36,884 nt of DNA from Gammaproteobacteria bacterium (GTDB lineage: Bacteria > Pseudomonadota > Gammaproteobacteria > JAJPIJ01), in NCBI GenBank assembly GCA_022072255.1, contig JAJVHZ010000005.1, forward strand, positions 1 to 36,884, written 5' to 3'. The position numbers and the translations under genes are program-made. The notes beneath the pieces were generated by a model, which worked only from the letters and a program-made list of their open reading frames with translations, made no database searches and was not told the DNA's origin. This document shows positions 1 through 30,597 of the stretch, piece by piece. Every line of letters starts with the position of its first letter. Position 1 is the first letter of the stretch.

Positions 1-1
1 G

Positions 2-241
2 GCGCGACCACAGTGGCAAGGGGATTTGACGCTGGAGTCCGGGCCCGAGCGCATCGAGTCCGGCTGGTGGGACAATCGGCCGGTCGCGCGCGACTACTAC
101 ATCGCCCGCGCCCGCAACGGCACGCGGCTGTGGATCTACCGCGAGCGCCCCGCCTGCACATGCGGACGCGCGCGCAGCGCCTCCCCGCCGCAGTCACCGC
201 CATCGGTCCCGCGCTGGTTCCTCCACGGCCTGTTCTCGTAA
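2..241 (+). CDS. imuB: ImuB, C-terminal fragment (Y-family polymerase-like protein)
   Basis: This is the 3' end of a gene that enters the window from the left, in frame 2, with its stop at 239-241. ImuB is a catalytically inactive Y-family polymerase homologue that bridges ImuA and DnaE2 in SOS-induced translesion synthesis. The fragment carries the family's C-terminal signature: GPERIESGWWD, then RDYYIARARNGTRLWIYRER, and WFLHGLFS at the very end. Between the last two blocks are about 20 residues rich in Cys, Arg, Ser and Pro that look unlike the usual short linker. The gene lies 161 bp upstream of dnaE2 on the same strand, the normal imuA-imuB-dnaE2 order. The identification is confident because of the motif and the neighbour. 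The catalytic-fold part lies outside the window. Confidence 0.88.
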   Translation, partial: ARPQWQGDLTLESGPERIESGWWDNRPVARDYYIARARNGTRLWIYRERPACTCGRARSASPPQSPPSVPRWFLHGLFS

Positions 242-402: not shown

Positions 403-3400
403 ATGTCGAACGCCCGGCCGCCGGCCTATGCGGAACTGCATTGCGTAAGCAATTTCTCCTTCCTGCGCGGCGCCTCGCGCCCGGAGGAGCTCATCGCCCG
501 CGCCGCGGCTCTCGGCTACGCCGCACTGGCGATCACCGATGACTGCTCGCTGGCCGGCGCCGTGCGCGCGCACGTCGCCGCGAGGGACGGCGCAATCAAG
601 CTGCTCATCGGGGCCGAGCTGACGCTCGGCGACGGTCCGAGGCTCGTGCTGCTCGCGACCAACCGCGACGGCTACGGCCATCTCTCCTCGCTCATCGCCC
701 GCGCCCGGTGCCGCTCGCCCAAGGGCGGCTATCGGCTGCACGCCGGCGATCTCGACGACGGCGCCCCCGGCTGTCTCGCCCTGATGATCCCCGCGCGGCC
801 CGCGAAGGCCGGGCAGCCAGACCCCGCGCCCGAGACTGCCGCGCACGCGCGCTGGCTCGCGGAGCTGTTCGCGGGCCGCGCGTGGCTCACCGTCGAGTCG
901 CTGCTGAGCGGCGGCGATCACCGTCACCTGGCGGCGATGCAGGCGCTGGGCAAGGCATCGGGACTGCCGCTGGTCGCCGCCGGCGACGTGCACATGCACG
1001 CGCGCGGACGCCGCGCGCTGCAGGACACGCTCACCGCCATACGCCTGCGCACCGCGGTCGCGAACGCCGGACACGCGCTGTTCTCCAACGGCGAGCGTCA
1101 CCTGCGCTCCCGCGAGCGGCTGGCGGCACTGTATCCGCCGGCACTGCTCGCCGAGACCGTCGCCATCGCCGAACGCTGCGCCTTCTCGCTGGCGGAACTG
1201 CGCTACGAGTATCCCGAGGAGCTGGTGCCCGCGGGCGACACTCCGACCTCCCGCCTGCGCGCGCTGACCGAGGCCGGCCTGCGCCACCGCTATCCGGGGG
1301 GCACGCCCGGGAAGGTCCATCTGCTCGTGGAGCGGGAGCTCGCCCTGATCGCGGAGCTGCGCTACGAGGCGTTCTTCCTCACCGTCCACGACATCGTCGC
1401 CTACGCGCGCCGCCGCGGCATCCTCTGCCAGGGCCGCGGCTCGGCGGCCAACTCGGCCGTGTGCTACGCCATCGGCATCACCGAGGTGGACCCGGCGCGC
1501 ACGGAACTGCTCTTCGAGCGCTTCGTGTCGAGAGAACGCAACGAGCCCCCGGACATCGACGTCGACTTCGAGCACGAGCGCCGCGAGGAGGTCATCCAGT
1601 ACCTCTACGGGAAATACGGCCGCGAGCGCGCCGCGCTGGCCGCCACCGTCATCACCTACCAGCCGCGCAGCGCCGTGCGCGACGTCGGCAAGGCGCTGGG
1701 CCTGGAGCCCGCCCAGGTCAACGCGCTGACCCGCAACCTCGCCTGGTGGGACGATCGCGACGCGTTGCCGGAGCGGCTGCGCGAGCGGGGCTTCGATCCG
1801 GCGCACCCGCAGATGCGGCAACTGGTGCACCTGGTCGGCGAGATCATCGGCTTCCCCCGCCACCTCTCGCAGCACGTGGGCGGCTTCGTCATCGCCCGCG
1901 ATCGACTGGCCCGGCTCGTCCCCATCGAGAACGCCGCCATGGCCGGGCGCACCGTCATCCAGTGGGACAAGGACGATCTGGAGGCACTGGGCCTGCTGAA
2001 GGTGGACGTGCTGGCGCTGGGCATGCTCTCGGCGATACGCCGGGCCTTCGATCTCATCCGCGCGCATCGCGGCCGCGAACTCTCGATGGCGAGCGTACCG
2101 GCGGAGGATCCCGGGACCTACGCCATGATCCAGCGCGGCGATACCGTCGGGGTGTTCCAGATCGAATCGCGCGCGCAGATGGCGATGCTGCCGCGGCTGA
2201 GGCCGGCGAACTTCTACGACCTGGTCATCGAGATCGCCATCGTGCGCCCGGGTCCCATCCAGGGCGAGATGGTGCATCCCTATCTGCGCCGCCGCCAGGG
2301 ACTGGAGAAGGTCTCCTACCCCTCCGAAGAGGTGCGCTCGGTGCTGCAGCGGACCCTGGGCGTGCCGCTGTTCCAGGAGCAGGTGATCAAGCTGGCGATG
2401 GTCGCCGCCGGCTTCACGCCCGGGGAGGCCGATCACCTGCGCCGCTCGATGGCGGCATGGCGGCGCAACGGCCACATCGCGCAGTTCCGGCAGAAGCTCC
2501 TCGACGGCATGCGGGCGCGCGGTTACGAGGAGGAATTCGCCGAGCGCGTCTATCAGCAGATCCTCGGCTTCGGCGAGTACGGTTTCCCGGAATCGCACAG
2601 TGCCAGCTTCGCGCTCATCACCTATGTCTCGGCCTGGCTCAAGTGTCACGAACCGGCCGCGCTCACCTGCGCGCTCCTGAACAGCCAGCCGATGGGTTTC
2701 TACGCGCCCTCGCAGCTGGTGCAGGACGTCCGGCGACACGGCGTCGAGGTGCTGCCCGTCGACGTGACGGTGAGCGCCTGGGACTGCACCCTCGAGCGGA
2801 CGGCCCTCTCCTCATCGCCGCGAGAGCCGCGCACTCCGCCGCGGCGCGCCCCGCAGGACACCGCCGCCCACGGCCACGATCGCGAAGGGCCGCTGGCGAT
2901 CCGGCTGGGCCTGCGCATGGTCAAGGGTCTCGCGCAGGAGGCGGCCGCACGCCTGGCCGCGGCGCGCGCGCGATCGCCATTCGCCGATCTCACCGACCTC
3001 GCGCGCCGCGCCGAACTCTCACGCCGCGATGTCAATGCGCTGGCCGCCGCCGACGCACTGGCCACGCTGGCGGGCAATCGCCGCCAGACCCGCTGGCAGG
3101 CACTGGCCGCGGAACGCCCCCTGCCCCTGCTCGCGGAGACGCGGATCGCCGAGGCCACGCCCCTGCTGCGGCCGCCGGACGAGGGCGAGAACATCGTCGC
3201 CGACTACGGCAGCACCGGGCTGTCGCTGCGCCGTCATCCGCTCGCGCTGCTGCGCCCGCGCTTGCGCCAGCTGCGGTGTCTGAGCGGCGAGGAGCTGAGA
3301 GCCCTGCCGCACGGAACGCCCGTCATCACCGCCGGCATGGTCATCACCCGCCAGCGGCCGGGCACGGCCACCGGCGTGGTGTTCCTGACGCTGGAGGACG

Positions 3401-3597
3401 AGACCGGGCAGATAAACGTCATCGTCTGGAGCAGCCTCGTCACACGGCACCGACGAGCGGTGACGGGCGCTCACCTGATGCTGGTGGAGGGCGAGATCCA
3501 GCGCGAGGGCGAGGTCCTGCACGTCATCGCCCGTCGCCTGCGGGACTACTCGCCGTTGCTCGGAGAGCTGACCGTCAGCTCACGGGATTTCCATTGA
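403..3597 (+). CDS. dnaE2: Error-prone DNA polymerase DnaE2 (ImuC)
   Basis: This is a C-family DNA polymerase alpha subunit of 1064 residues, the usual size for DnaE2 and shorter than replicative DnaE. It extends primers past lesions together with ImuA and ImuB. The N-terminal PHP domain begins with ELHCVSNFSFLRGAS and continues with LAITDDCSLAG. The palm holds the catalytic acidic cluster PDIDVDFEHERRE (about residues 385-397), followed by the YGRERAALAATVITY block. The helix-hairpin-helix part and an OB fold (TGVVFLTLEDETGQINVIVW, near the C-terminus) follow. A Pro/Arg/Ser-rich low-complexity stretch of about 30 residues (about residues 800-830) interrupts the region before the GLRMVKGL motif. 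The ATG at 403 gives the conserved N-terminus, although no good Shine-Dalgarno sequence precedes it. I saw no clear LexA box in the 161 bp upstream, so it is probably transcribed with imuB. Confidence 0.96.
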   Translation: MSNARPPAYAELHCVSNFSFLRGASRPEELIARAAALGYAALAITDDCSLAGAVRAHVAARDGAIKLLIGAELTLGDGPRLVLLATNRDGYGHLSSLIARARCRSPKGGYRLHAGDLDDGAPGCLALMIPARPAKAGQPDPAPETAAHARWLAELFAGRAWLTVESLLSGGDHRHLAAMQALGKASGLPLVAAGDVHMHARGRRALQDTLTAIRLRTAVANAGHALFSNGERHLRSRERLAALYPPALLAETVAIAERCAFSLAELRYEYPEELVPAGDTPTSRLRALTEAGLRHRYPGGTPGKVHLLVERELALIAELRYEAFFLTVHDIVAYARRRGILCQGRGSAANSAVCYAIGITEVDPARTELLFERFVSRERNEPPDIDVDFEHERREEVIQYLYGKYGRERAALAATVITYQPRSAVRDVGKALGLEPAQVNALTRNLAWWDDRDALPERLRERGFDPAHPQMRQLVHLVGEIIGFPRHLSQHVGGFVIARDRLARLVPIENAAMAGRTVIQWDKDDLEALGLLKVDVLALGMLSAIRRAFDLIRAHRGRELSMASVPAEDPGTYAMIQRGDTVGVFQIESRAQMAMLPRLRPANFYDLVIEIAIVRPGPIQGEMVHPYLRRRQGLEKVSYPSEEVRSVLQRTLGVPLFQEQVIKLAMVAAGFTPGEADHLRRSMAAWRRNGHIAQFRQKLLDGMRARGYEEEFAERVYQQILGFGEYGFPESHSASFALITYVSAWLKCHEPAALTCALLNSQPMGFYAPSQLVQDVRRHGVEVLPVDVTVSAWDCTLERTALSSSPREPRTPPRRAPQDTAAHGHDREGPLAIRLGLRMVKGLAQEAAARLAAARARSPFADLTDLARRAELSRRDVNALAAADALATLAGNRRQTRWQALAAERPLPLLAETRIAEATPLLRPPDEGENIVADYGSTGLSLRRHPLALLRPRLRQLRCLSGEELRALPHGTPVITAGMVITRQRPGTATGVVFLTLEDETGQINVIVWSSLVTRHRRAVTGAHLMLVEGEIQREGEVLHVIARRLRDYSPLLGELTVSSRDFH

Positions 3598-11657: not shown

Positions 11658-12530
11658 ATGTTCAATCGCATCGGTCTGTTCGCCAAGAAGGGCGATCCCC
11701 AGGTCAAGCAGACCCTGGAGCGGCTGCTGGCCTGCCTGCAGGGACGCGGGGTGGACATCCTCCTCGATGACACCTGCGCCGCCCTGGTCGGAGACCTGGT
11801 CGCCCCACCGCCGGCCCCGCCGACAGCCGACGGCGGCCGCGAACTCGTGATCGTGGTCGGCGGCGACGGCACCATGTTGAGCGCGGCCCGCAACCTGTTC
11901 GAATTCGACGTGCCGCTGCTGGGCGTGAACCTGGGCCGGCTGGGCTTTCTTGCCGACCTGAGCCCCGCGGACATCCCCGTTGGCATCGAGGCGATACTCG
12001 ACGGCCGGTACACCGAGGAGCTGCGCATGTTGCTGCGCTGCGAGGTGATCCGCAACAGCGAGGTCGTGGCCACCAGCAATGCCTGCAACGATGCCGTCGT
12101 GCAGAAATCCAACACGGCACGGCTCATCAGCCTGAGCACCTACATCAACGGCCGCTTCCTGCACAGCCAGCGTTCCGACGGCCAGATCATCGCCACCCCG
12201 ACGGGCTCCACCGCCTACGCCCTCTCCGGCGGCGGACCGATCCTGCACCCGGCACTGGATGCGGTGGTGATCGTTCCCATCTGCCCGCACACCCTCACCC
12301 AACGCCCGATCGCGCTGGCGGGCAACAGCCGCATCGAGGTGCTGGTGAATACCCGCGAGCCGGACCGGGCGGAGTTCACCTGTGACGGTGAATCCATCTG
12401 CACCCTGCAGCCCGGCGATCGGGTGCACATCGTCAAGCACGAGCGCACCGTGCGGCTGCTGCACCCGGCGGGTCACGATCACTACGCGACCCTGCGCGCG
12501 AAGCTCAACTGGGGCACCGACCCCTGCTGA
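11658..12530 (+). CDS. nadK: NAD kinase
   Basis: This phosphorylates NAD to NADP with ATP or polyphosphate in the cytoplasm. Starting at the ATG at 11658 it is 290 residues and begins MFNRIGLFAKKGDP, the usual position of the first strand. A GTG at 11604 would add 18 poorly conserved residues. Neither start has a good Shine-Dalgarno sequence. The kinase motifs are clear: VVGGDGTMLSAARNL (GGDG), GVNLGRLGFLADL, and SNACNDAVVQK (the NE/D motif, here ND). The substrate loop SDGQIIATPTGSTAYALSGGGPILHP and PICPHTLTQRPI follow. recN begins 20 bp downstream on the same strand, a common proteobacterial arrangement. Confidence 0.97.
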   Translation: MFNRIGLFAKKGDPQVKQTLERLLACLQGRGVDILLDDTCAALVGDLVAPPPAPPTADGGRELVIVVGGDGTMLSAARNLFEFDVPLLGVNLGRLGFLADLSPADIPVGIEAILDGRYTEELRMLLRCEVIRNSEVVATSNACNDAVVQKSNTARLISLSTYINGRFLHSQRSDGQIIATPTGSTAYALSGGGPILHPALDAVVIVPICPHTLTQRPIALAGNSRIEVLVNTREPDRAEFTCDGESICTLQPGDRVHIVKHERTVRLLHPAGHDHYATLRAKLNWGTDPC

Positions 12531-12550
12531 GAATCCGGTCGGGCGACCTC

Positions 12551-14224
12551 GTGCTGCGCTACCTGCAAGTCAAGCATCTCGCGGTCATCGACGAGGTCGA
12601 ATTGGAGTTTGACGGCGGAATGACCGTTTTCACCGGCGAGACCGGCGCCGGCAAGTCGATACTGATCGAGGCCCTGGGGCTGGCCCTCGGTGACCGCGCC
12701 GAGAGCAGCATGGTGCGCGCAGGCTGCGAGCAGGCAAGCATTTCCGCGATCTTCGATCCGCTGCCTGACACCGCCTTCGCGACGCTGCTGGAGCAACACG
12801 GAATCGAGCGCGAGGAGGAACTGGTCATCAAGCGGCAGGTGGGCAGCGACGGGCGTTCGCGCGCCTTCGTCAACGGGTCGCCGGTACCCCTGACGGTCCT
12901 GCGCGCCATCGGCGAGCGGCTCGCGGACATCCACGGACAGCATGAGCATCATTCCCTGCTCCGCCGCGACGCGCAGCGGGGATTGCTCGACGAGTTCGGC
13001 CATCATGAGCAGCTGCTCGACGCCGTCGGCTCCGCCCATGCGCGTCTGCGAGTGCTGCAGCAGCGGCTCGTGCAGCTCGAGGGCGCCTCTGGCAACGCCG
13101 AAGGCGAGGCGGACCTGCTCCGCTACCAGGTCTCGGAGTTGAAGGCGCTGCAGCCGACCCCCGAGGGCATCGCGGCTCTGGAAGAGGAGCATCGCCGCCT
13201 CGCCAATGCCGGGCGCCTGGCCGAGGGATGCGGGCAGATCCTGGACCTCCTGAGCGATGCGGAGGACAACGCGCAGGTCATGGCGGATCGCGCCGCGCGC
13301 GAGGTCAACGCGCTCGCCCGTCTGGACGCGCGCTTCGCCGAGGTCGCGGCCATGCTGGAGGCCGCCTCGATACAGCTCGGCGAGGCGGCGCTGTGGCTGC
13401 GCCACTATGCCGGCGGGATGGATGCCGACCCCGAGCGCGTGGAACAGATCGAGCAGCGGCTCGCCGCGCTGCACGACCTCGCGCGCAAGCATCGCGTGCC
13501 CGCCCCGGAACTGCCGGCGCAACTGGCACGCCTCGAGCAGCGTCTGTATGAACTGGAGCACGGCGCGGAGCTGCGTGAGCAGGTGCGCCGCGACCTCGAG
13601 ACCGCACTGCAGGAGTACGACGAGGCGGCGACACGGCTGCACGAGGCGCGTGTGCAGACGGCGAAGAAGCTTGCCGCGGCGGTCACGCGCAACATGCACG
13701 AGCTCGGCATGCCGGGCGGCAAGTTCGCCGTCGGCGTGGAGTCCCCGGGCGCCGCCGCGCGCACCGCGCACGGCAGCGACCGCGTCGAGTTCGAGGTGAC
13801 GGCCAATCCCGGACAGCCGATGAGACCTCTCAACAAGGTGGCCTCGGGCGGCGAACTCTCGCGCATCAGCCTTGCCATCCAGGTGCTGAGCGCCAAGGGC
13901 AAGCGCGTTCCGTCATTCGTCTTCGACGAGGTGGACGTCGGCATCGGCGGCCGCGTGGCCGAGATTGTCGGACGAATGCTCCGGGATTTGGGCGGGGACG
14001 GCCAGGTGCTCTGCGTCACGCACCTGCCGCAGGTGGCGGCGCTGGGCCACCAGCACATTCGCATCGAGAAGGCCGTCGACGACGGTACCACCCGGATCGA
14101 GGCATCGTCGCTCGGGAGCGAGGCGCGAGTCGAGGAACTCGCGCGCATGCTGGGCGGAGTCACCATCACCAAGCAGACGGTCGCCCACGCGCGCGCGATG
14201 CTGGAGGCGTCCGCCACAGGCTAG
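12551..14224 (+). CDS. recN: DNA repair protein RecN
   Basis: This SMC-like ATPase of 557 residues binds double-strand breaks and supports recombinational repair. The start is a GTG giving LRYLQVKHLAVIDEVELEF. Walker A is GETGAGKSILIEAL (about residues 28-41). The middle is a long coiled coil rich in Glu, Ala, Arg and Leu. The ABC signature is ASGGELSRISLAIQVL, and Walker B is SFVFDEVDVGIGGRVA, followed by VLCVTHLPQVAALG. Length matches the family. It is probably co-transcribed with nadK. recN is often SOS-regulated elsewhere, but I see no clear LexA box directly upstream here. Confidence 0.97.
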   Translation: MLRYLQVKHLAVIDEVELEFDGGMTVFTGETGAGKSILIEALGLALGDRAESSMVRAGCEQASISAIFDPLPDTAFATLLEQHGIEREEELVIKRQVGSDGRSRAFVNGSPVPLTVLRAIGERLADIHGQHEHHSLLRRDAQRGLLDEFGHHEQLLDAVGSAHARLRVLQQRLVQLEGASGNAEGEADLLRYQVSELKALQPTPEGIAALEEEHRRLANAGRLAEGCGQILDLLSDAEDNAQVMADRAAREVNALARLDARFAEVAAMLEAASIQLGEAALWLRHYAGGMDADPERVEQIEQRLAALHDLARKHRVPAPELPAQLARLEQRLYELEHGAELREQVRRDLETALQEYDEAATRLHEARVQTAKKLAAAVTRNMHELGMPGGKFAVGVESPGAAARTAHGSDRVEFEVTANPGQPMRPLNKVASGGELSRISLAIQVLSAKGKRVPSFVFDEVDVGIGGRVAEIVGRMLRDLGGDGQVLCVTHLPQVAALGHQHIRIEKAVDDGTTRIEASSLGSEARVEELARMLGGVTITKQTVAHARAMLEASATG

Positions 14225-21269: not shown

Positions 21270-21578
21270 CCGCGCATACGCCCCACCGCCCTGCCAACCC
21301 CGGTGCGGGCCGCCCCGGGGGTCCGGCGCTGGCGACGCCAGCGGCTGGCCCGGCGATCTCGCACTGCCAGCCCGGCTGGGCCGCGCTGGCGACACAGTCC
21401 CGGGTGCAGGGGTGCTCGGGGCCGCGAAGTCGCCCACGACCGCCCGCAACTTTGTTACAGTAGCGCTGTCTGACGTTTCAGTTCCCGGGGGCGACCTGGC
21501 TTCGACGCGGGTTTGAAACCTCAAGGGGCATGCCGAGGGGCAGAGCACCTCGTAAATCCAACTGCAAAATACATAGTT

Positions 21579-21611
21579 GCCAACGACGACAACTACGCCT
21601 TAGCCGCTTAA
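21579..21611 (+). other. tmRNA proteolysis-tag reading frame (ANDDNYALAA)
   Basis: The resume codon GCC at 21579 opens a ten-codon frame ANDDNYALAA with stop TAA at 21609-21611. With the alanine carried by the tmRNA, the added tag is A-ANDDNYALAA. The Escherichia coli tag is A-ANDENYALAA, so only one residue differs and the ALAA degron for ClpXP is kept. Confidence 0.95.
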
Positions 21612-21821
21612 GCCGGCTAACCTTCGACCCGGTCGTGCTTGTGCGCTGGACTCGAAGGTCATCCACACAAGATCGTGACGAGGCACGCCTGGGGCCGAAC
21701 TCACCAAAGCAGTACAGGATCGCCACGTGGTCCCCCTGCCGCTCGGAGGCGCGTGGTCAAATCAAAGAGACGGCTACGCATGTAGAACCTTAGGCGTATG
21801 GCTTGCGGACGCGGGTTCGAT

Positions 21822-21838
21822 TCCCGCCGCCTCCACCA
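21822..21838 (+). repeat. Left attachment-site copy at the ssrA 3' end (attL candidate)
   Basis: The last 17 bases of ssrA read TCCCGCCGCCTCCACCA. A copy with one mismatch occurs at 30112-30128 in the same orientation, where the base composition returns to that of the core. tmRNA 3' ends are classic integration targets of tyrosine recombinases. Confidence 0.6.
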
Positions 21839-21844
21839 ATCCGC

Positions 21845-21870
21845 TGGTCTGGGGAGACCTCCCCAGACCA
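21845..21870. repeat. Perfect 11-bp hairpin just after ssrA
   Basis: TGGTCTGGGGA (21845-21855) and TCCCCAGACCA (21860-21870) pair perfectly around a GACC loop. It begins 7 nt after the ssrA 3' end. No T-tract follows on the plus strand, so it is a poor intrinsic terminator. It may still end ssrA transcription or help 3' processing, or it may belong to the island end. The remaining DNA up to 22188 holds no gene I can support. Confidence 0.6.
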
Positions 21871-22188
21871 CGCCAGTTTCACTGTCATCAAAGGCTTGGC
21901 ACCAAACCGGTGCATCCTAGGCTACAGACCGCGTCGGTTCATTCTGAACGTTGGTTGGCCGCAACGGCCTCGCAGCGCGGGCCTACCGCATCGCTTTTGC
22001 CGTGCCCGAAGGCCTCATCAGCGACTGTTTGGCGTGGCGGCAACGTCCTCCCGGCGAAGATTGGCGCCGATGCTTCGGGTCCTTTCCGACAATCGAATGC
22101 GGCTGGACGTATGTGAGAGAATCAACTGTTGCAGGAACTGCAGGGCGGTCGAGCTTTTCACTCGCAGACGCGAACGGGCGGCAGACCG

Positions 22189-22219
22189 AAAAGGCGGCCT
22201 GGAATACCTCCAGGCCGCC
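22189..22219 (-). terminator. Rho-independent terminator of the exported-protein operon
   Basis: GGCGGCCTGGA (22193-22203) and TCCAGGCCGCC (22209-22219) form a perfect 11-bp stem with a 5-nt loop. On the minus strand it is followed by TTTT (22192-22189). It lies 26 bp after the stop of the 516-residue exported protein, so it ends the cupin/exported-protein transcript. Confidence 0.85.
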
Positions 22220-22245
22220 AATAGCCAATACATGCGAACAAGATG

Positions 22246-23796
22246 CTAGTTCTGACTCGCCGTCGACATAATTGGTTTGCAGGAGGTTCCCGCCGGTGTC
22301 ATGCCGCTGCTGGAACGCATGACCGGTGAGGCCGGGGACGATACGTACGACACCGGAGCACGGACTGTCGGATAGTGCATAGTCAAGTAGTCAGGAACAT
22401 ACCGAGCGTCTGGGTTCTTTACGCCGCGCTTGACGAGGTATGGATCTGTGAAGGTACCGTAGTTTCCAGGCTGTACATGGTAGCTCACGTCCTTGGTTCC
22501 TTTGCCCGCATTCGCCAGATATTTCCCTGCGTCATTCCAATTGTTGCCATCTAGGTTGGCGTAGAATTTGATGTCCACAAGGACCCCATCGCACAAAGGC
22601 GTGATTTCCTCGTATTGTGTCGGCCACGCCGACCCTCCGGAGGTATCCGGATACCGGCCCCAGTCTCCACCCTTGAGCGGGCACGCACCACCACCACCAT
22701 ACGACGCACGGTCAGGATGGTGTACGCCATACAGTGGCGTCCCGATGACTCGCTCGAGCTTGGGGCCTTGCGTCGTGGCGATATTAAACCTGGGTCTCTG
22801 TGTCACGATTGTCTTTAGCTTGTGCAGCCCACGTTCCCTGAGTGACTGATAGTACTCACCGTAAGGTCGTACGTATCTCAAATCATTGTTGTCCTCGTTA
22901 TCGTATACCGCGAGCACGAACAGATAAGGATGATTGAAGAACGGCCGTTCCACAAGATAGTACTCTGCTTTCGTCTTGCGAGTATCGATCGGTTGCCAAT
23001 CAAGGTACGACGAGTCATGCCCCTTCTTTCCGACATTGATCCAGCTACGTGCGTCTGGGAAATGATCAAGACGGAGAACCTTGGTGTAATTTTCCTTGAT
23101 ATCGAGTCCGGCGCGCTTCCCAAGAGGGCCGACCTTGTTTGCTCCAGGCTGATCGAACGCAAACGTCATCGCCTCCACCGCGTGCGGATAATCATTCTCC
23201 GACATGGTGCAGTAGAAGCTCGGCAGCTCGATAGGTGCGTGCCGAACGTATTTGCCCCCGTACTTCGCATGGGTAATCGGCAAATCGATGTAGTTCAACT
23301 TCCCGTCCGAGACCCTCTGATCAGGATACCGATAGAAAGCCCAGTCCTCGGGACGGTCATAACTGCTGTAGCTCGACTTGATAATCGCCAAGTTGGCCGG
23401 ATCACTGAGGTCGGCGCCCTCGGGAAGGGCAGGCTGGCCGCTCTTCAGATACTCGCGAATGGTGCCGGCCTCCTGCATGCGCCACAATCCATGCTTGCCT
23501 TCTCCGATCATCGTGAAGACCTGCTCGACCACGTTGACGAAGCGATACGTGTAATTCGTCTGCATGTAGCCAACGTAGAATGGCAGATGTGGTATCAGCG
23601 AATGCGTCGTTTTGGGCCGTCCACTGGCGCCCATCATCTTTTCTTGCTCGGGTGGAATGATCTGATCGGCCGTGTAGAAGAACGGATCCGTGTTGATCAG
23701 GTCAGATTTTGGATCGGCAGCATGGACATTGCCTGCCGCGAGGTACAGGGCCGCACACACCGCGCCCGACAGTTCGGATAGCTTAATTTTGGTCAT
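22246..23796 (-). CDS. Exported protein of unknown family, 516 residues
   Basis: I do not recognise this family. An export signal is clear: KIK n-region, hydrophobic core, and cleavage after VHA (about residue 26). The mature protein is rich in Tyr, Pro, Asp, Gly and His, with no membrane helix. Notable parts are HSLIPHLPFYVGY (65-77), ITHAKYGGKYVRHAPIELPS (175-194) and YGVHHPD (356-362). Four cysteines lie at 196, 372, 402 and 506. There is no CxxCH haem motif, no twin-arginine signal, and no molybdopterin or copper-oxidase signature. The last 40 residues after YLTMHYP turn into Ser/Pro/Thr-rich sequence and may be frame-shifted. The gene follows the cupin gene by 66 bp on the same strand and ends at a strong terminator. 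It is probably a TorR-type regulator target because of its position. Substrate and activity are unknown. Confidence 0.8.
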   Translation of the reverse strand: MTKIKLSELSGAVCAALYLAAGNVHAADPKSDLINTDPFFYTADQIIPPEQEKMMGASGRPKTTHSLIPHLPFYVGYMQTNYTYRFVNVVEQVFTMIGEGKHGLWRMQEAGTIREYLKSGQPALPEGADLSDPANLAIIKSSYSSYDRPEDWAFYRYPDQRVSDGKLNYIDLPITHAKYGGKYVRHAPIELPSFYCTMSENDYPHAVEAMTFAFDQPGANKVGPLGKRAGLDIKENYTKVLRLDHFPDARSWINVGKKGHDSSYLDWQPIDTRKTKAEYYLVERPFFNHPYLFVLAVYDNEDNNDLRYVRPYGEYYQSLRERGLHKLKTIVTQRPRFNIATTQGPKLERVIGTPLYGVHHPDRASYGGGGACPLKGGDWGRYPDTSGGSAWPTQYEEITPLCDGVLVDIKFYANLDGNNWNDAGKYLANAGKGTKDVSYHVQPGNYGTFTDPYLVKRGVKNPDARYVPDYLTMHYPTVRAPVSYVSSPASPVMRSSSGMTPAGTSCKPIMSTASQN

Positions 23797-23862
23797 GTCT
23801 CATTCCTCCACTCCAGACACTACTGAGTGTTCGTGGTCTACATGTTTGATTTGGTGCGCCGC

Positions 23863-24288
23863 TTAAGCGCCGCCCATTTCGCGGTTGCCGCAGATGAATC
23901 CCAGTCCGCTGTCGTTCGATGAGAACTCGATTGTTGCGCCCTTCGGAAAGTACAGCACATCGCCGGCGTCGGCCGTGACAGTTGTTTCGCCATCGGACAC
24001 CGTAATAGATCCATCGAGTATGATCTTCGCCTCGTCATAGTCATACGTGTACGTCAGGTGCTTGCCTTTCTCCATTCTGAAAAGACCACAGGTGATGGGC
24101 GCAGTCTTGTCGGAATTGCCCACAAGGTCCCGGAGAAACGCATTGGTACCTTCCACATTCATCGATGGGAGTTCGAGTTTGCTCGCCCCGTCTATGTACT
24201 GCAGTTTGATTTCGGCTGCTCTTGCCACCGAGATACTGGCTGCCGACACGAGCGTCGCACTAACCACAATCAGGACTGACGTCTTCAT
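23863..24288 (-). CDS. Small exported cupin protein (EutQ-like fold)
   Basis: This encodes 141 residues with a signal peptide ending near VARA|AE (about residue 25). The cupin core shows motif 1 as GKHLTYTYDYDEAKIILDGSITV (about 75-97) and motif 2 as GDVLYFPKGATIEFS (about 109-123). Only one of the canonical metal-binding histidines is kept (His77), so classic 3-His metal binding is unlikely. It resembles the EutQ/ureidoglycine-type cupins that act in small-molecule metabolism. It is first in the operon with the 516-residue exported protein. It is divergent from the torR-like gene with 151 bp between, which marks it as a likely target of that regulator. Confidence 0.8.
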   Translation of the reverse strand: MKTSVLIVVSATLVSAASISVARAAEIKLQYIDGASKLELPSMNVEGTNAFLRDLVGNSDKTAPITCGLFRMEKGKHLTYTYDYDEAKIILDGSITVSDGETTVTADAGDVLYFPKGATIEFSSNDSGLGFICGNREMGGA

Positions 24289-24410
24289 GGTAATGGCCTC
24301 TCCTCTGGTACATGTGGGTCGATTTCGAAACGTGGTTGCACCTCACCGCCAAGAATGTATCGTCGCGATGTAAATGCGTTGTGGTATTCCGCTAGAAGAT
24401 GTGGCACGAT

Positions 24411-24430
24411 TTGTTAAAAGTTGTTAAAGG
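24411..24430 (+). repeat. Tandem decamer repeat, candidate TorR-like operator
   Basis: TTGTTAAAAG (24411-24420) is followed immediately by TTGTTAAAGG (24421-24430), a 9/10 direct repeat at one helical turn. OmpR-family regulators, including TorR, bind tandem decamers. The second copy includes the AAAGG ribosome-binding sequence of the torR-like gene, so binding would block transcription or translation there. No sequence identity to the Escherichia coli tor box is claimed. Confidence 0.5.
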
Positions 24431-24439
24431 ACTCCCGTC

Positions 24440-25150
24440 ATGAGGCAACTGCCTCCGCATATCGTCATCGTCGAAGACGATCCCACGACGAGGACCAAGC
24501 TGGCCGCCTATTTCAAGGTCGAAGGCTATCGTGTTAGCACGGCAGAGAGCGGCGCTGCCATGCGCATCGTTCTCGCGGATCAGCCGGCGGACCTCCTGAT
24601 GATCGACATCAATCTGCCTGGAGAGGATGGACTTCGTCTTACTCGAGAGCAGCGCGAACGCTCAGAGGTGGGAATAATTCTGGTTACCGGTCGTACCGAT
24701 GTCGTGGACCGAATCGTCGGGCTGGAGATGGGCGCCGATGATTATGTGACAAAGCCCTTCGATCAACGGGAGCTGCTCGCGCGCGTCAGGAATCTTATTC
24801 GCCGAGTGCAGATGAGCCGCGTCGATTTCGCGTCGCACCGCGCGCGGAGGTTCCTCGACTGGACTCTTGATCTGACTCACAGGACATTGAAGGGAAAAGA
24901 CGGTAGGTTCGTCGATCTCACTCGTGCGGAGTTCGCTGCACTTGCATTGCTTTCCGGACATCCAGGGCAAGTAATGTCGCGCGAACGCATCTTGCGCGAA
25001 ATAGCGCATCGCGACTGGGATCCGTCCGATCGAACAGTCGATGTCGTAATCCGCCGCTTGCGGCAGAAACTCGGTGATGATTCGCGCCATCCCCGAATCA
25101 TCGTCACTTCCCACGGCGAAGGCTATCTATTCGTCGCCACCCTGAGGTGA
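24440..25150 (+). CDS. torR: TorR-like response regulator (OmpR family)
   Basis: This encodes 236 residues. The receiver domain (1-120) has the acidic pair in IVEDDP (Asp13/14), the phosphoacceptor Asp56 in [13 protein letters not shown], Thr83 and Lys105. The winged-helix effector (about 135-232) shows [26 protein letters not shown] and [18 protein letters not shown], the OmpR/TorR pattern. AAAGG lies 9 nt upstream of the ATG. The gene is divergent from the cupin operon and converges on torS, overlapping it by 24 bp at the 3' ends. The symbol marks homology. TMAO control is not shown, since no torCAD genes are present. Confidence 0.88.
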
Positions 25151-27994
25151 GGCCATGACCTCAGATCTCGCCTCCGCAATCGCGGCACGGTATTGACTCT
25201 CACACCGTGCAATCAACTCCCGCACCATGCTTTCCTCGTGTTCTTTTGCTGCGCGTTCGAGCGCCTCGGCGGCATACAGAAGCGCATTGAAACCGACGGA
25301 CGCCGCAGTGCTCCGTGTTGCGTGCGCGAGATTGACCAGCTCTGCGAAGTCTCCGTTATCCAGCGCCGTCCGCATGGCGCTCAGCCTTGGCGGGAGGGTT
25401 TCCTCGACGGTTTCCAGCAGCAGTTGAGTCGTCTCAGGTCCTAACGCGCAGAGGTCTTTGCGAAAACTCTCACGATCAAGATTCACGGGCAGCACCGTTC
25501 GTATTGCATTACATAGACTCTCCGGTGTCATCGGTTTGCTGACAAAGGCGTCCATACCGGACGACAGATAGTGCTCCACCTCAGCCGTGAACACGTGGGC
25601 CGACATCGCGACGATTGGCAACGGGCAATATACCGCTTCGCGAATCTTATGAGCCGCCGTGATACCGTCCATTCCAGGAAGGCCAATGTCTAGGAAGATA
25701 AGATCCGGAAGCCATCGCCGGGCCAATGCAACCGCCTCGTAGCCGTCAGCGGCCGTGCTCACCGTGTGCCCTAGGCGTTCGAGGAAGGTGCCAACGACAA
25801 TTCTCGTCGCCTCGTCATCCTCGACAACCAGCACCCGAAGAGACCGGCCTACCGTACCTGTCGCGCCCGCCGGCGATTTCGTCATCGCCGCAGGCACAGT
25901 CGTCTTCCGCAAGGAAATGGTAAACGCGAACGCGCTGCCCTCGCCGGGTCGCGACGTCGCGGATATCTGTCCGCCCAAGGCTTGAACGATTCTCCTCGAG
26001 ATCGCCAGCCCAAGCCCGCTGCCGCCAACTCGTCGCGTGATCGACGTCTCGACCTGCGAGAACGGCTCAAACAGGCGGTGCTGCTCGGATTCCGGGATAC
26101 CAATTCCCGTGTCCCTAACGACGATGACCACAGCCTGGTCTTCCCCGTCATCCGCAACGAGCTTGGCCGAAACGTCAATATGTCCATTGTCCGTGAACTT
26201 GATCGAATTGTTGACCAGATTGAATACAACCTGCCCTAGTTTGCCGGGATCGCCGCGGTGATGTTCCGCAAGTTTGCCGTCATACCACAACGCAACCACG
26301 AGATCTTTACATTCCGCCGATGGTCGCATGAGTTCGACAATACCTGTCAGAACCTCGCGCAGGCTGAAGTCGATACTCTCGATCTCTAACTTTCCGGACT
26401 CAATCTTTGAGTAATCGAGAATGCTGTTAAGAATACTGAGCAACGCTTCCCCCGATCTCGTCGCAATGGATAACTGCTCGCGTTGTTCCGTGCCCAGAGG
26501 TCCGTCATTCAGTATGCGAAGCATTCCGAGTATGCCGGTCATCGGCGTACGAATCTCGTGACTCATTGTAGCCAGGAAGTCCGATTTTGCTCGCGTCGCG
26601 ACCTCGGCCCTTTCCCGTTCCGCCGCGTGCCGTGTAACCTCCTGCTGCAGCTGCGCAGTGCGCTCGTTGACAAGCTCCTGCAAATGTTCACGATGCAGTC
26701 GCAGTTCCTGTGTGTCGCGCTCCCGCTCTGCTTCCAGGACACGGCGTCGCTGCGATTCGTCTCGAAAGGCAATCACGGCATTGGACAGTGCCCGCAATTC
26801 CCGGATCCCCTCTTCCTGCACTTCCACGCCGAGATCGCCACTCGTGAGACGCTGCATCGCGTTGGTCAGTTGCGTCAGTCGCCGCACTACGCTGCGTTCG
26901 ACATAGAACCAGACTATGAGCACCGACAGCCCTACAGCCACCGCCGCGGAAATTACCAATACGTATAGACCGGCATCGACCGCGCGCTCAGCCAGTGTGG
27001 CCGTGGATCTCGCGAACGCCTCGGATTTCCGCAGCATTTCCTCCGCGATGCGGTTCATGTTCGCTGATAATTCCCGATTACCCGCGGCAACTTCATCGAA
27101 CTCCCTATTGAGCGCGATTAAGCGCATGCGCTCAGGGAATGGCGGATGATTCCTTGATGATGAAGGTTTGGGCGTCTGTAGCACCGCAAGAAACGTTGCG
27201 GCCTGCTGACGACGGGCAGGGTCCTGAATGCTGGCGATGCGCCGCCGGACTACGCGGAGATGGTCCTGATAGCTGTCGGCAATTTCTTTGACTTCCTCGA
27301 TATCATCGGCGCGCGTCAATCGATGAATGAGCAGCGCTAGTTGAGAGCTTCGAAAGCGCAGTTCGGACATCCGATCGAGAAGGTAGATGTCGTCTTCAAT
27401 CAGACGATCCAGGGCACCGTAAACCTGTTCGCGATCACTGGCGCTATCGACAATCTCGTAGAGGCTGGATACAACGGCGGAGGTCGTCGCCCTCGCGTTA
27501 GACACCAGTGTTTCTGAAAGATCGAAGATCGCGGTGGCCGCCGCGATCGCACGTTCGGCGTGTTGGGTAAATTTCACCTGCAACTGGATTCGCTCTTCAA
27601 CGAGGCGATTTTGAGCTGACAGATTGGATACCAAGGCATCGACGGTATTGGCTACGTTGTCGACCAGATCAGGATCCACAGATGAGAACGCTACTTCATT
27701 GACCGACTTGCGAATCTCGCTCGTGAGCACCTGCAGGTCCGCCTCCAGGCCGGCGCGTGTGCTCTCGTCCGCGGCAGAGCTCCATCGCGGTGCGGCGGCG
27801 ACAAGCCGCGCGGTTGCCTCAGCGATGTGCTGTGTGGCGGCCACCGCCGGCAGCGCCTTTTGAGTGATCAGCGACTGTGCCTGAGATACCTCGCGAAAGA
27901 TGATCCACCCCGCGATGCCGGAAGACAGTGACAGGCCCGCAACGCCAAGAAATGCCACGAACAGTCTTGCACCGATGCCGATCCGGGAGAACAT
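25127..27994 (-). CDS. torS: TorS-like hybrid sensor histidine kinase
   Basis: This inner-membrane sensor of 955 residues has the full TorS order. TM1 is at about 10-32, followed by a large helical periplasmic sensor (33-340) and TM2 at about 342-364. HAMP and coiled coil occupy about 365-465. The kinase core has His479 in [10 protein letters not shown], the N-box [10 protein letters not shown] and GIGIPESEQ. The receiver has Asp769 in [13 protein letters not shown]. An HPt domain has His891 in [13 protein letters not shown]. The phosphorelay His-Asp-His-Asp would end on the TorR-like regulator. It is divergent from the torT-like gene (68 bp). Its 3' end overlaps that of torR. Confidence 0.9.
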
Positions 27995-28062
27995 TGCTGT
28001 ACCCTATACGCGTAGGCCGATAGGTTGATGATACATCCAGACAGGAGGGCCGAACGAGGCAT

Positions 28063-29112
28063 ATGAGAAATGCACTGCTGGCAATAATGGTGGGCATGGT
28101 TCTGCCGTTGCAGGGTCAGACCGATCAGTTCTGGTCCGTCGATACCTGGACATCTCCCTTTGACTACGGGAGCAGTTCGAGAACCATCGAATATCAGCCG
28201 TTGACTGCCGCCACAAGGCCTTGGCGCATCTGCGCCGCATATCCTCATATCAAGGATTCCTACTGGCTGTCGGTGAATTTTGGCATGGTCGAGCATACCC
28301 GCGCGCTTGGGCTGAAGCTTCGGGTGGTCGAGGCCGGCGGTTATCCCAACCTGGAGCGTCAGGTAGCGCAGATTGAGGAATGCTCCCGCGATGCTGATGC
28401 GGTCATAGTGGGGACGGTCTCTTTCGACGGCCTGACCCCGCTGATTCAGCGATTGTCTCAGACCAAGCCGGTAATTGCGGCAGTCAACGACATCAATAGC
28501 GCAGGCATAACGGCCAAGGCCGGGGTCTCGTGGGTAGCGATGGGGGCGGCAGTTGGCGAATACCTGGCACTCAGGCATCCCGCAGGACAGCGGCCGGTCA
28601 GGATCGCCTGGTTCCCCGGGCCCAAGGGAGCCGGCTGGGTGAAATTCGTGGAGGCGGGGTTCTACCGCACGCTCAGCGAGAGTTCTGCGGAAATTGTCGC
28701 GGTGAAATGGGGCGACACCGGATTTGAGTCGCAGCTGTTGCTACTCGAGGAGGTGCTTGAGGAACATCCGGACATCGATTACGTCGTCGGCAGCGCAGTA
28801 ACGGCCGATGCCGCCGTAAGCCTGTTGCGTGCGAAGGGTCTTACGCACCAGATTGGAATACTCGCAGATTACTTCACCCATGGAACGTTTCGCGCAATCA
28901 AGCGCGGCAAGGTATTAGCCGCGCCAACCGACTCGCCCGTCATGCAAGGCAAGATCGCAATCGACATGGCGGCCCGAGCGTTGGAGGGTTCACTGAAGAT
29001 CATTCATGCCGGGCCGACCATCCGAATAGTCGACCAAGGGAACGTAACCGATCTTGACATCGAAGACAGCCTCGCTCCTGCATGGTTCAAGCCGACATTT
29101 GTCGTGGAATGA
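28063..29112 (+). CDS. torT: TorT-like periplasmic sensor protein
   Basis: This periplasmic binding protein of 349 residues belongs to the ribose-binding-protein-like superfamily. In Escherichia coli TorT binds TMAO and signals through the TorS periplasmic domain. The N-terminal signal (residues 1-19) is short, ending near LQGQ. TorT-like blocks include RICAAYPHIKDSYWLSVNFGMVEHTRALGLKL, EAGGYPNLERQVAQIEEC, VIVGTVSFDGL, WFPGPKGAGWVKFVEAGF and DYVVGSAVTADAA. They end with ILADYFTHGTFRAIKRGKVLAAPTDSP. It lies beside a TorS-like kinase, so ligand reception is clear in outline, but the ligand need not be TMAO. Confidence 0.9.
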   Translation: MRNALLAIMVGMVLPLQGQTDQFWSVDTWTSPFDYGSSSRTIEYQPLTAATRPWRICAAYPHIKDSYWLSVNFGMVEHTRALGLKLRVVEAGGYPNLERQVAQIEECSRDADAVIVGTVSFDGLTPLIQRLSQTKPVIAAVNDINSAGITAKAGVSWVAMGAAVGEYLALRHPAGQRPVRIAWFPGPKGAGWVKFVEAGFYRTLSESSAEIVAVKWGDTGFESQLLLLEEVLEEHPDIDYVVGSAVTADAAVSLLRAKGLTHQIGILADYFTHGTFRAIKRGKVLAAPTDSPVMQGKIAIDMAARALEGSLKIIHAGPTIRIVDQGNVTDLDIEDSLAPAWFKPTFVVE

Positions 29113-29215
29113 CTTCAAATCGGCGGCGTATTGAAACATGAGCATGCAGTATGCGTTGGAGCGATAGTACGTCGATATCGAGTGTTCCGCAGAGCGTGCT
29201 ATGTCGCGATGGCAC

Positions 29216-29536
29216 TCAGCAAACAAGACCGCATCGGTATTTCCGAAGACACCCGTATAGGGGAACAGGTCGCTGGCAGCCAACCGCTCCCTCCCTATCT
29301 GCCAATTCCACCACCGAGCCCAAACTCACCACGGTACCCCAAGACTCCATCGGTGCCGCCTGCAGCCGCCCCCGCTTGCCCAACGTGAACTGCTCAGGGT
29401 CTCGGAACATCACCGTACAGACACAACAACTGAAGAACGGCGTCCGGTGCGGCGGCTTGCCGCCACGCAGCACTATCACTTGCTCGTAGAAATGTCCGCC
29501 GCAAAGTGGGCACCGGAATCGTGGGTAGTCCGTCAG
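29216..29536 (-). CDS. Zinc-ribbon-like small protein of a decayed mobile element
   Basis: This encodes about 106 residues if a CTG at 29536 serves as start (LTDYPRFRCPLCGGHFYEQ). No ATG gives a sensible N-terminus, so the start may be lost. Two CxxC pairs (CPLC and CCVC) flank VLRGGKPPHRTPFF and precede VMFRDPEQFT, a pattern I associate with hypothetical proteins on integrative elements. The C-terminal 45 residues look unstructured. A LexA-boxed promoter sits just upstream. It may be a pseudogene. Confidence 0.45.
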   Translation of the reverse strand: MTDYPRFRCPLCGGHFYEQVIVLRGGKPPHRTPFFSCCVCTVMFRDPEQFTLGKRGRLQAAPMESWGTVVSLGSVVELADREGAVGCQRPVPLYGCLRKYRCGLVC

Positions 29537-29548
29537 GTGCGCGCGGAA

Positions 29549-29576
29549 ATAATACTGTACTAATGTACAGTAGCAA
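29549..29576 (-). promoter_or_regulatory. Promoter with LexA-like SOS box in its spacer
   Basis: On the minus strand the -35 is TTGCTA (29571-29576), the spacer 16 nt and the -10 TATTAT (29549-29554). The 20-bp palindrome at 29553-29572 has perfect 8-bp arms TACTGTAC and GTACAGTA and fits CTG-N10-CAG, the gammaproteobacterial LexA box. LexA bound there would occlude RNA polymerase. The predicted transcript starts near 29542 and reads into the zinc-ribbon ORF. Confidence 0.75.
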
Positions 29577-29603
29577 GTACGGCGTACGTAGCGTCGGTGT
29601 GGT

Positions 29604-29793
29604 CTAGGCCGACATTTTCGCGCGGGGTGACTCACCCTGTTGAAATCGCCGGAATATCTCCTCGTGGTGAACAGCCGTATCAGCAGGAGCGGCTACTCCG
29701 ATACGTACCTGGTTGCCCTTAACCCCGACGGGTGACCTCGATGGCCTCACCGATTCTGATGGTTTCGCCTGCGCGGCGGGTGAGAATGAGCAT
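29604..29793 (-). pseudogene. csrA: csrA-type carbon storage regulator, frameshifted
   Basis: The ATG at 29793 is preceded by AGGAGG and starts [21 protein letters not shown], an unmistakable CsrA N-terminus. The frame then hits TAA at 29719-29721. Shifting by one base near 29730 restores [32 protein letters not shown] and a stop at 29604-29606, giving about 62 residues. The lesion is one inserted or two lost bases. CsrA homologues are common cargo on integrative elements. This copy cannot make a full protein unless the ribosome shifts or the base is a sequencing error. Confidence 0.88.
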
Positions 29794-30111
29794 GATGCCT
29801 CCTTGCTGGTTGGTGGACGTGAATCCGGGCTATCTGCCCGTGAGTGAGAAACTACTGCTCCCGCCGACAGTGGGTTAGCGGGGGCTATTGAACGTGGGCA
29901 TCATTTCACGTTAGCCCTTCTTCGCCGTGGACGTGGGAGTGAGGGTAACGCTGAGGGCGGTATCAGAGGTGGCAAGGTCGAGATCGGCCTGAATCCTTGC
30001 TAATCTGAGTGACAAGCGGGTGTATCAAACTCGTGACCGCATCGAACCCAGACTCGATATTACGACCATTACAATCAGCGAGTTAGGCGGATAGCTGGTG
30101 GAGGTAGCGCC
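29794..30111. other. Right arm of the island, no intact gene
   Basis: No intact gene is visible. On the minus strand the end of a protein-like frame can be read (ATSDTALSVTLTPTSTAKKG followed by a stop at about 29910), without an identifiable upstream part. A small hairpin (CGGGC with GCCCG) lies at about 29826-29840. TGGTGGAGG at 30096-30104 is the exact reverse complement of the last nine bases of ssrA, next to the direct copy. Confidence 0.4.
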
Positions 30112-30128
30112 TCCCGCCGCCTACACCA
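30112..30128 (+). repeat. Right attachment-site copy (attR candidate)
   Basis: TCCCGCCGCCTACACCA matches the last 17 bases of ssrA at 16 of 17 positions, in direct orientation. It lies where the sequence changes back to the GC-rich composition of the core. The adjacent inverted copy of the terminal nine bases at 30096-30104 gives the site a partly palindromic look. Confidence 0.6.
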
Positions 30129-30597
30129 TTCTCACCAGGCCCAACCATCACAGGTTGCGCTTCTTGCTTTCCCGAGCGCGCCCGCTGGCGGGGTCTCGGA
30201 CCCCGCCTCGCGAGCGCCGCCCCTTGCGATCCGCCGGTCCCGCCCGATCCAGGGCCTCTCCTCTCTCCGCTTGCCGCGGTGGTCTCGCGAGCATTCGCGA
30301 AACCAATTCCCCTGTCGTTGAACAGCGCGATGTCGCTCGCACCGTTCGGGCCGATGCCCCCTGGCTCGAACTCCTCTACTGGCAGGCTGAGCCCCTTGAT
30401 GGCCGCCACGCCACTGTGGTGGCTCGCCGGCACCTCACGTTCCAGCAGTGCGGCTGCGCGGGAACGCGACCGAAAAGCGCGTCATCTAATGGTCGGGATC
30501 ACGCGCGACCAAACATCGCCGACCGGCTCGGTGCCTGACCCATCCGCGCGTACCCGCCGCGGTTCGCCGACTAACGAAATGGAGCGAGGACACTAAG
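30129..30597. other. GC-rich region without a recognised gene
   Basis: I see no gene I can name here. Both strands have open frames, as expected at this GC content. On the minus strand a stretch at about 30290-30430 (SHHSGVAAIKGLSLPVEEFEPGG and onward) looks protein-like but crosses into the inferred attachment site and has no family I know. The last 15 bases hold the GAGGA ribosome-binding sequence of the next gene. Confidence 0.4.

Follow-up and report, generated by a model that had tools for sequence, protein, structure and literature searches.

A putative LexA operator in the promoter of a zinc-ribbon gene on a decayed island at the tmRNA gene

The segment 29549-29576 of the window, by which we mean the whole stretch of 36,884 nucleotides that was analysed, is probably a minus-strand promoter of the sigma-70 type in which a LexA operator serves as the spacer. 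It would place a small zinc-ribbon gene, an accessory gene of an island at the tmRNA gene, under SOS control. SOS control of an island transcript had been proposed in the original prediction. For the zinc-ribbon gene it is now well supported by sequence comparison: the genome contains lexA and near-match operators, and the box recurs together with a -10 hexamer and the same protein family in two other lineages.

Read on the minus strand, positions 29576-29549 are TTGCTA-CTGTACATTAGTACAG-TATTAT, with a spacer of 16 nt that is filled by the box. The -35-like hexamer TTGCTA is at 29571-29576, and the -10-like hexamer TATTAT (29549-29554) overlaps the end of the operator. The operator itself (TACTGTACTAATGTACAGTA, 29553-29572) is a palindrome of 20 bp, TACTGTAC-TAAT-GTACAGTA, with perfect arms of 8 bp. 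Arms, centre, fit to CTG-N10-CAG and placement between the two hexamers are exactly as originally described. The palindrome also matches CTGT-N8-ACAG, the form of the E. coli-type LexA operators of beta- and gammaproteobacteria (PMC3323433), and its location within a promoter is that expected of an SOS unit. It shares with these operators the perfect consensus, the overlap with the promoter -10 and the near-identity to the organism's own lexA operator, but the gene that it would control is an island zinc ribbon rather than a repair gene.

This is the sole perfect TACTGT-N8-ACAGTA in the genome, while Markov models of first and second order, trained on the window, predict only 0.007-0.010 per 4.27 Mb. 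With arms of 8 bp the expectation falls to 5e-6 to 3e-5 under the same models, and dinucleotide shuffles of the window never produced the palindrome, even when 3 mismatches were allowed. As chance alone would give 12-15 sites of the loose form CTG-N10-CAG in the window, we base the argument on all 12 outer letters together. If up to 2 mismatches are allowed, the whole genome has only 18 sites. A second, weak LexA-like site with 2 mismatches and a GC-rich centre (TACTGCTCCCGCCGACAGTG) is found at 29853-29872, about 60 nt upstream of the start of a csrA remnant.

The original prediction made its reading depend on a lexA gene. The genome encodes one clear LexA DNA-binding domain, and the gene's own operator is a one-mismatch match to the box. 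There are only two one-mismatch sites in the genome. One (C11:80274) is located 221 bp before the start codon of lexA in the arrangement lexA-imuA-imuB, the other (C28:45932-45951) precedes an integron integrase gene (TIGR02249; L053:4683-6068, minus strand) that is broken by one in-frame stop and suggests a chromosomal integron, or a former one, in this genome. Because the only near matches precede lexA-imuA-imuB and an integron integrase, the word in the box is taken to be the LexA motif of this organism. A one-mismatch box is also found before lexA in genome G001 from the same genus. Contig C11 ends in 127 bases (83196-83322) that are identical to window positions 1-127, and thus lexA-imuA-imuB and dnaE2 (window 403-3597) appear to be one cassette that was split by the assembly. 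In that case imuB continues to dnaE2 at the window start and lexA would be about 32 kb away from the box. As CTG-N10-CAG occurs neither around recA (L064) nor just upstream of recN (window 12300-12700), the SOS regulon of this organism may be small.

It could be argued that the palindrome belongs to another regulator, or arose by chance, and has nothing to do with LexA. AT-rich palindromes like this one are bound by some regulators. We consider this very improbable, since all 12 outer positions match at an expectation of 0.01 per genome, and since nearly the same word precedes lexA in this genome and in its sister. Somewhat less improbable, yet still unlikely, is an intrinsic terminator belonging to the csrA remnant that lies upstream. 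Such a structure would have a stem of 8 bp, a loop of 4 nt and a TTATTT tail; it follows the csrA stop after 31 nt, a terminator-like site is indeed found there (about 1 is expected by chance), and the RNA fold has a z-score of -2.25. However, the stem is rich in A and U with only 3 G-C pairs and the U tail is poor. The two related loci described below (L073 and L123) retain the outer TACTGT/ACAGTA and not all of the inner stem pairs, which is what LexA binding would predict but a hairpin would not, and csrA is not recognised immediately upstream of the box in L073 (the L123 sequence extends no more than about 115 bp upstream of its box).

Downstream of the proposed LexA-controlled promoter, the zinc-ribbon ORF can be read on the minus strand from a CTG codon (LTDYPRFRCPLCGG...CCVCTVMFRDPEQFT, 29216-29536), which is separated from the box by 16 nt. 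As had been noted before, it lacks a normal start: there is no ATG, GTG or TTG between the box and the first Cys pair, and the first start-like codon is the CTG at 29536. Relatives could be assigned only to the core at about 29536-29384 and not to the ORF beyond it. In a related protein from a viral contig (L187), the first residues MPDPTRFRCP align with LTDYPRFRCP of the window; the ATG of the relative thus coincides with the CTG of the window, and loss of the original ATG in the window copy is the simplest reading. Neither the window nor L123 has an evident Shine-Dalgarno sequence, and in L123 the ATG follows the -10 by only about 6 nt, so that a nearly leaderless mRNA is possible. Since the start codon has apparently been lost and csrA is frameshifted, the zinc-ribbon gene is probably decaying in this genome and the operator may drive a transcript that gives little or no protein. 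A decaying island can thus retain an operator whose gene has already lost its start codon.

All four ligand cysteines are intact in the core and have the spacing C-x2-C-x24-C-x2-C. Pfam, NCBIfam and PHROGs provided no confident family for the protein of the window. A beta hairpin and a short helix are predicted by AlphaFold with moderate confidence (pLDDT 77). The family profile matches zinc ribbons of the Rpb9/RPA12 type weakly (E 1.6e-4 and 2.2e-4), and the same group comes up in Foldseek at a level that is not significant (E above 0.1). The cysteine spacing is the one seen in the C-terminal zinc ribbons of TFIIS, Rpb9 and RPA12, but in the window the ribbon is a stand-alone bacterial protein. 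Contact with nucleic acid or with RNA polymerase is a reasonable guess, no more. A comparable arrangement is that of the Ogr/Delta late-gene activators (PF04606): in genomes of Pseudoalteromonas and in viral contigs, these small zinc proteins with four cysteines are preceded by a LexA box at a distance of about 40 nt. The window's protein does not pass the Pfam cut-off for PF04606, however, the profile comparison reaches a probability of only 33%, and the cysteine spacing differs.

Searches with the single protein returned nothing significant from plasmids, phages, viral contigs, 85k species genomes and two sets of 56 and 369 related genomes. For this reason we scanned 85,000 species genomes and the viral contigs for a pattern consisting of a LexA box, 25-55 nt, and CPxCG codons. 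Two of the 93 stretches returned encode proteins like that of the window: L073 from a betaproteobacterial MAG and L123 from a MAG of the Burkholderiales. They score 89 and 105, respectively, against the window core, while the next best stretch scores 47, and none of 200 shuffles that kept CPxCG and all cysteines in position reached these values. Box and CPxCG were prescribed by the pattern and the other 40 residues were not, so that family membership is independent evidence, while the presence of the box in L073 and L123 is a biased measure, as both were found by demanding it. Window, L073 and L123 share TACTGT..ATT...ACAGTATNAT, and in all three the box runs straight into a TATNAT -10 (TATTAT, TATGAT and TATCAT, respectively); conservation does not extend to the -35. 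The genome of L123 has a lexA gene with a one-mismatch box; no match to the LexA DNA-binding domain was obtained in the MAG of L073, which may be incomplete. L073 is located near a gene for an SRAP (SOS-response-associated peptidase).

The third relative, L187, was found by alignment search. It is 57% identical over 51 residues and resides on a viral contig that also encodes a prohead protease, and no box precedes its gene. LexA control is thus not universal in the zinc-ribbon family. Box plus zinc-ribbon gene, a combination that the original prediction advised to search for on intact elements, is present in the two MAGs and not in the viral relative. The viral contigs do not contain the promoter pattern of 28 bp. 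Profile searches with the family (A2 and A3, covering 369 and 398 genomes) gave weak matches which, except for the window itself, were taken as chance, so that no clear family member besides the window emerged from the roughly 770 genomes sampled. A literature search found no report that joins a LexA box with a zinc ribbon. LexA-regulated accessory genes are already known as a kind, and this unannotated family adds to them as one that is probably under SOS control. Its members can be checked for by a simple signature: box, TATNAT, and 33-44 nt to CPxCG.

The zinc-ribbon gene is part of an island of 8.3 kb with signs of integration at the 3′ end of the tmRNA gene and no recognisable integrase. 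The tmRNA gene ssrA (21487-21838, plus strand) provides the left att-like site at its 3′ end. The 20 nt at 21822-21841 are repeated with 18 of 20 matches at 30112-30131 (plus strand), the probable right att-like site, and the 17-nt core with one mismatch is beyond chance. The region in between (21842-30111) has a GC content of 57%, as opposed to 67-68% in the flanks, and codes for hypothetical proteins, torR, torS, torT, the csrA remnant and the zinc ribbon. In the csrA remnant (29604-29793, minus strand), which ends 31 nt before the operator, both halves match the Pfam family CsrA (PF02599) above cut-off and are separated by a frameshift. With att-like repeat, low GC and frameshifted csrA, the original view of a decayed mobile-element region is supported.

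An integrase was not found: tblastn with the tmRNA integrase of the sister genome gave no credible match, and none was seen among the scanned island ORFs. Neither a relaxase nor an excisionase was recognised in the island, and the gene does not adjoin integrase, relaxase or excisionase genes in the related loci, so that the proposed link to excision or transfer gained no support. Integron integrase promoters are SOS-controlled (Cambray et al. 2011, PMC3108266), and the window locus resembles them in having a gene on mobile DNA with a LexA box overlapping the -10, as is also the case at C28:45932 in this genome; it differs in that no integrase was found at the locus and that another protein is encoded. 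G001 matches the window up to the end of the tmRNA gene, exactly where the match stops, and then continues with an unrelated element that has a tyrosine integrase beside the tmRNA (L061:1706-3046). As this is a different element, the genus probably has a hot spot of integration at the tmRNA 3′ end. An empty site was not seen in G001 when synteny was followed from FolE; its tmRNA gene is on another contig, and is occupied by the integrase element. The genes resembling TorR, TorS and TorT (TMAO sensing) occupy window positions 24440-29112 of the low-GC island, where no torCAD reductase genes were recognised.

Decay of the island raises the question whether the operator has merely been inherited from a formerly SOS-controlled element and controls no functional gene here any more. 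The frameshift in csrA, the missing start codon, the lack of a recognised integrase and a gene tail without relatives would all fit, and we hold this to be quite possible, if just short of an even chance. Yet the box is intact, as is the core with its four ligand cysteines in the spacing C-x2-C-x24-C-x2-C. As to origin, such a relic is compatible with the explanation we prefer, a LexA-controlled promoter for the zinc-ribbon gene.

Under that preferred explanation, LexA bound at the box would occlude RNA polymerase. Upon DNA damage, self-cleavage of LexA stimulated by RecA would release the box, and transcription would then give a short mRNA, possibly with hardly any leader, that encodes a small zinc-ribbon protein of the TFIIS type. 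The gene belongs to the accessory DNA of an island that had inserted at the 3′ end of the tmRNA gene. LexA binding, induction and binding of the protein to nucleic acid or RNA polymerase are what we infer from the sequence. A more far-reaching scheme, by analogy to Ogr/Delta in P2-like phages, is that this undescribed TFIIS-like family acts as a damage-induced switch of mobile islands, the protein made upon LexA release binding to RNA polymerase or DNA and turning the element on; we regard this as speculative and rather doubtful. If true, the zinc-ribbon genes that follow LexA boxes in Cupriavidus and in Pseudoalteromonas phages would be parallel cases.

Both of these came up as separate observations. 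In many Cupriavidus genomes and one Ralstonia genome, a perfect or near-perfect LexA box precedes another kind of zinc-ribbon ORF by 34-41 nt (M[LS]PEPANCPxCGxAAER...; loci L067, L070-L072, L075, L077, L081, L082, L084, L098, L100, L103, L109, L110, L116, L117, L118, L126), which is a candidate SOS gene of Cupriavidus. In Pseudoalteromonas genomes and viral contigs, the box is located about 40 nt before the zinc finger of the Ogr/Delta type (loci L076, L079, L080, L083, L092, L112, L129, L130, L133, L136-L138, L142, L143, L146, L149, L151-L154, L156, L157), which suggests direct SOS control of a late activator in Pseudoalteromonas.
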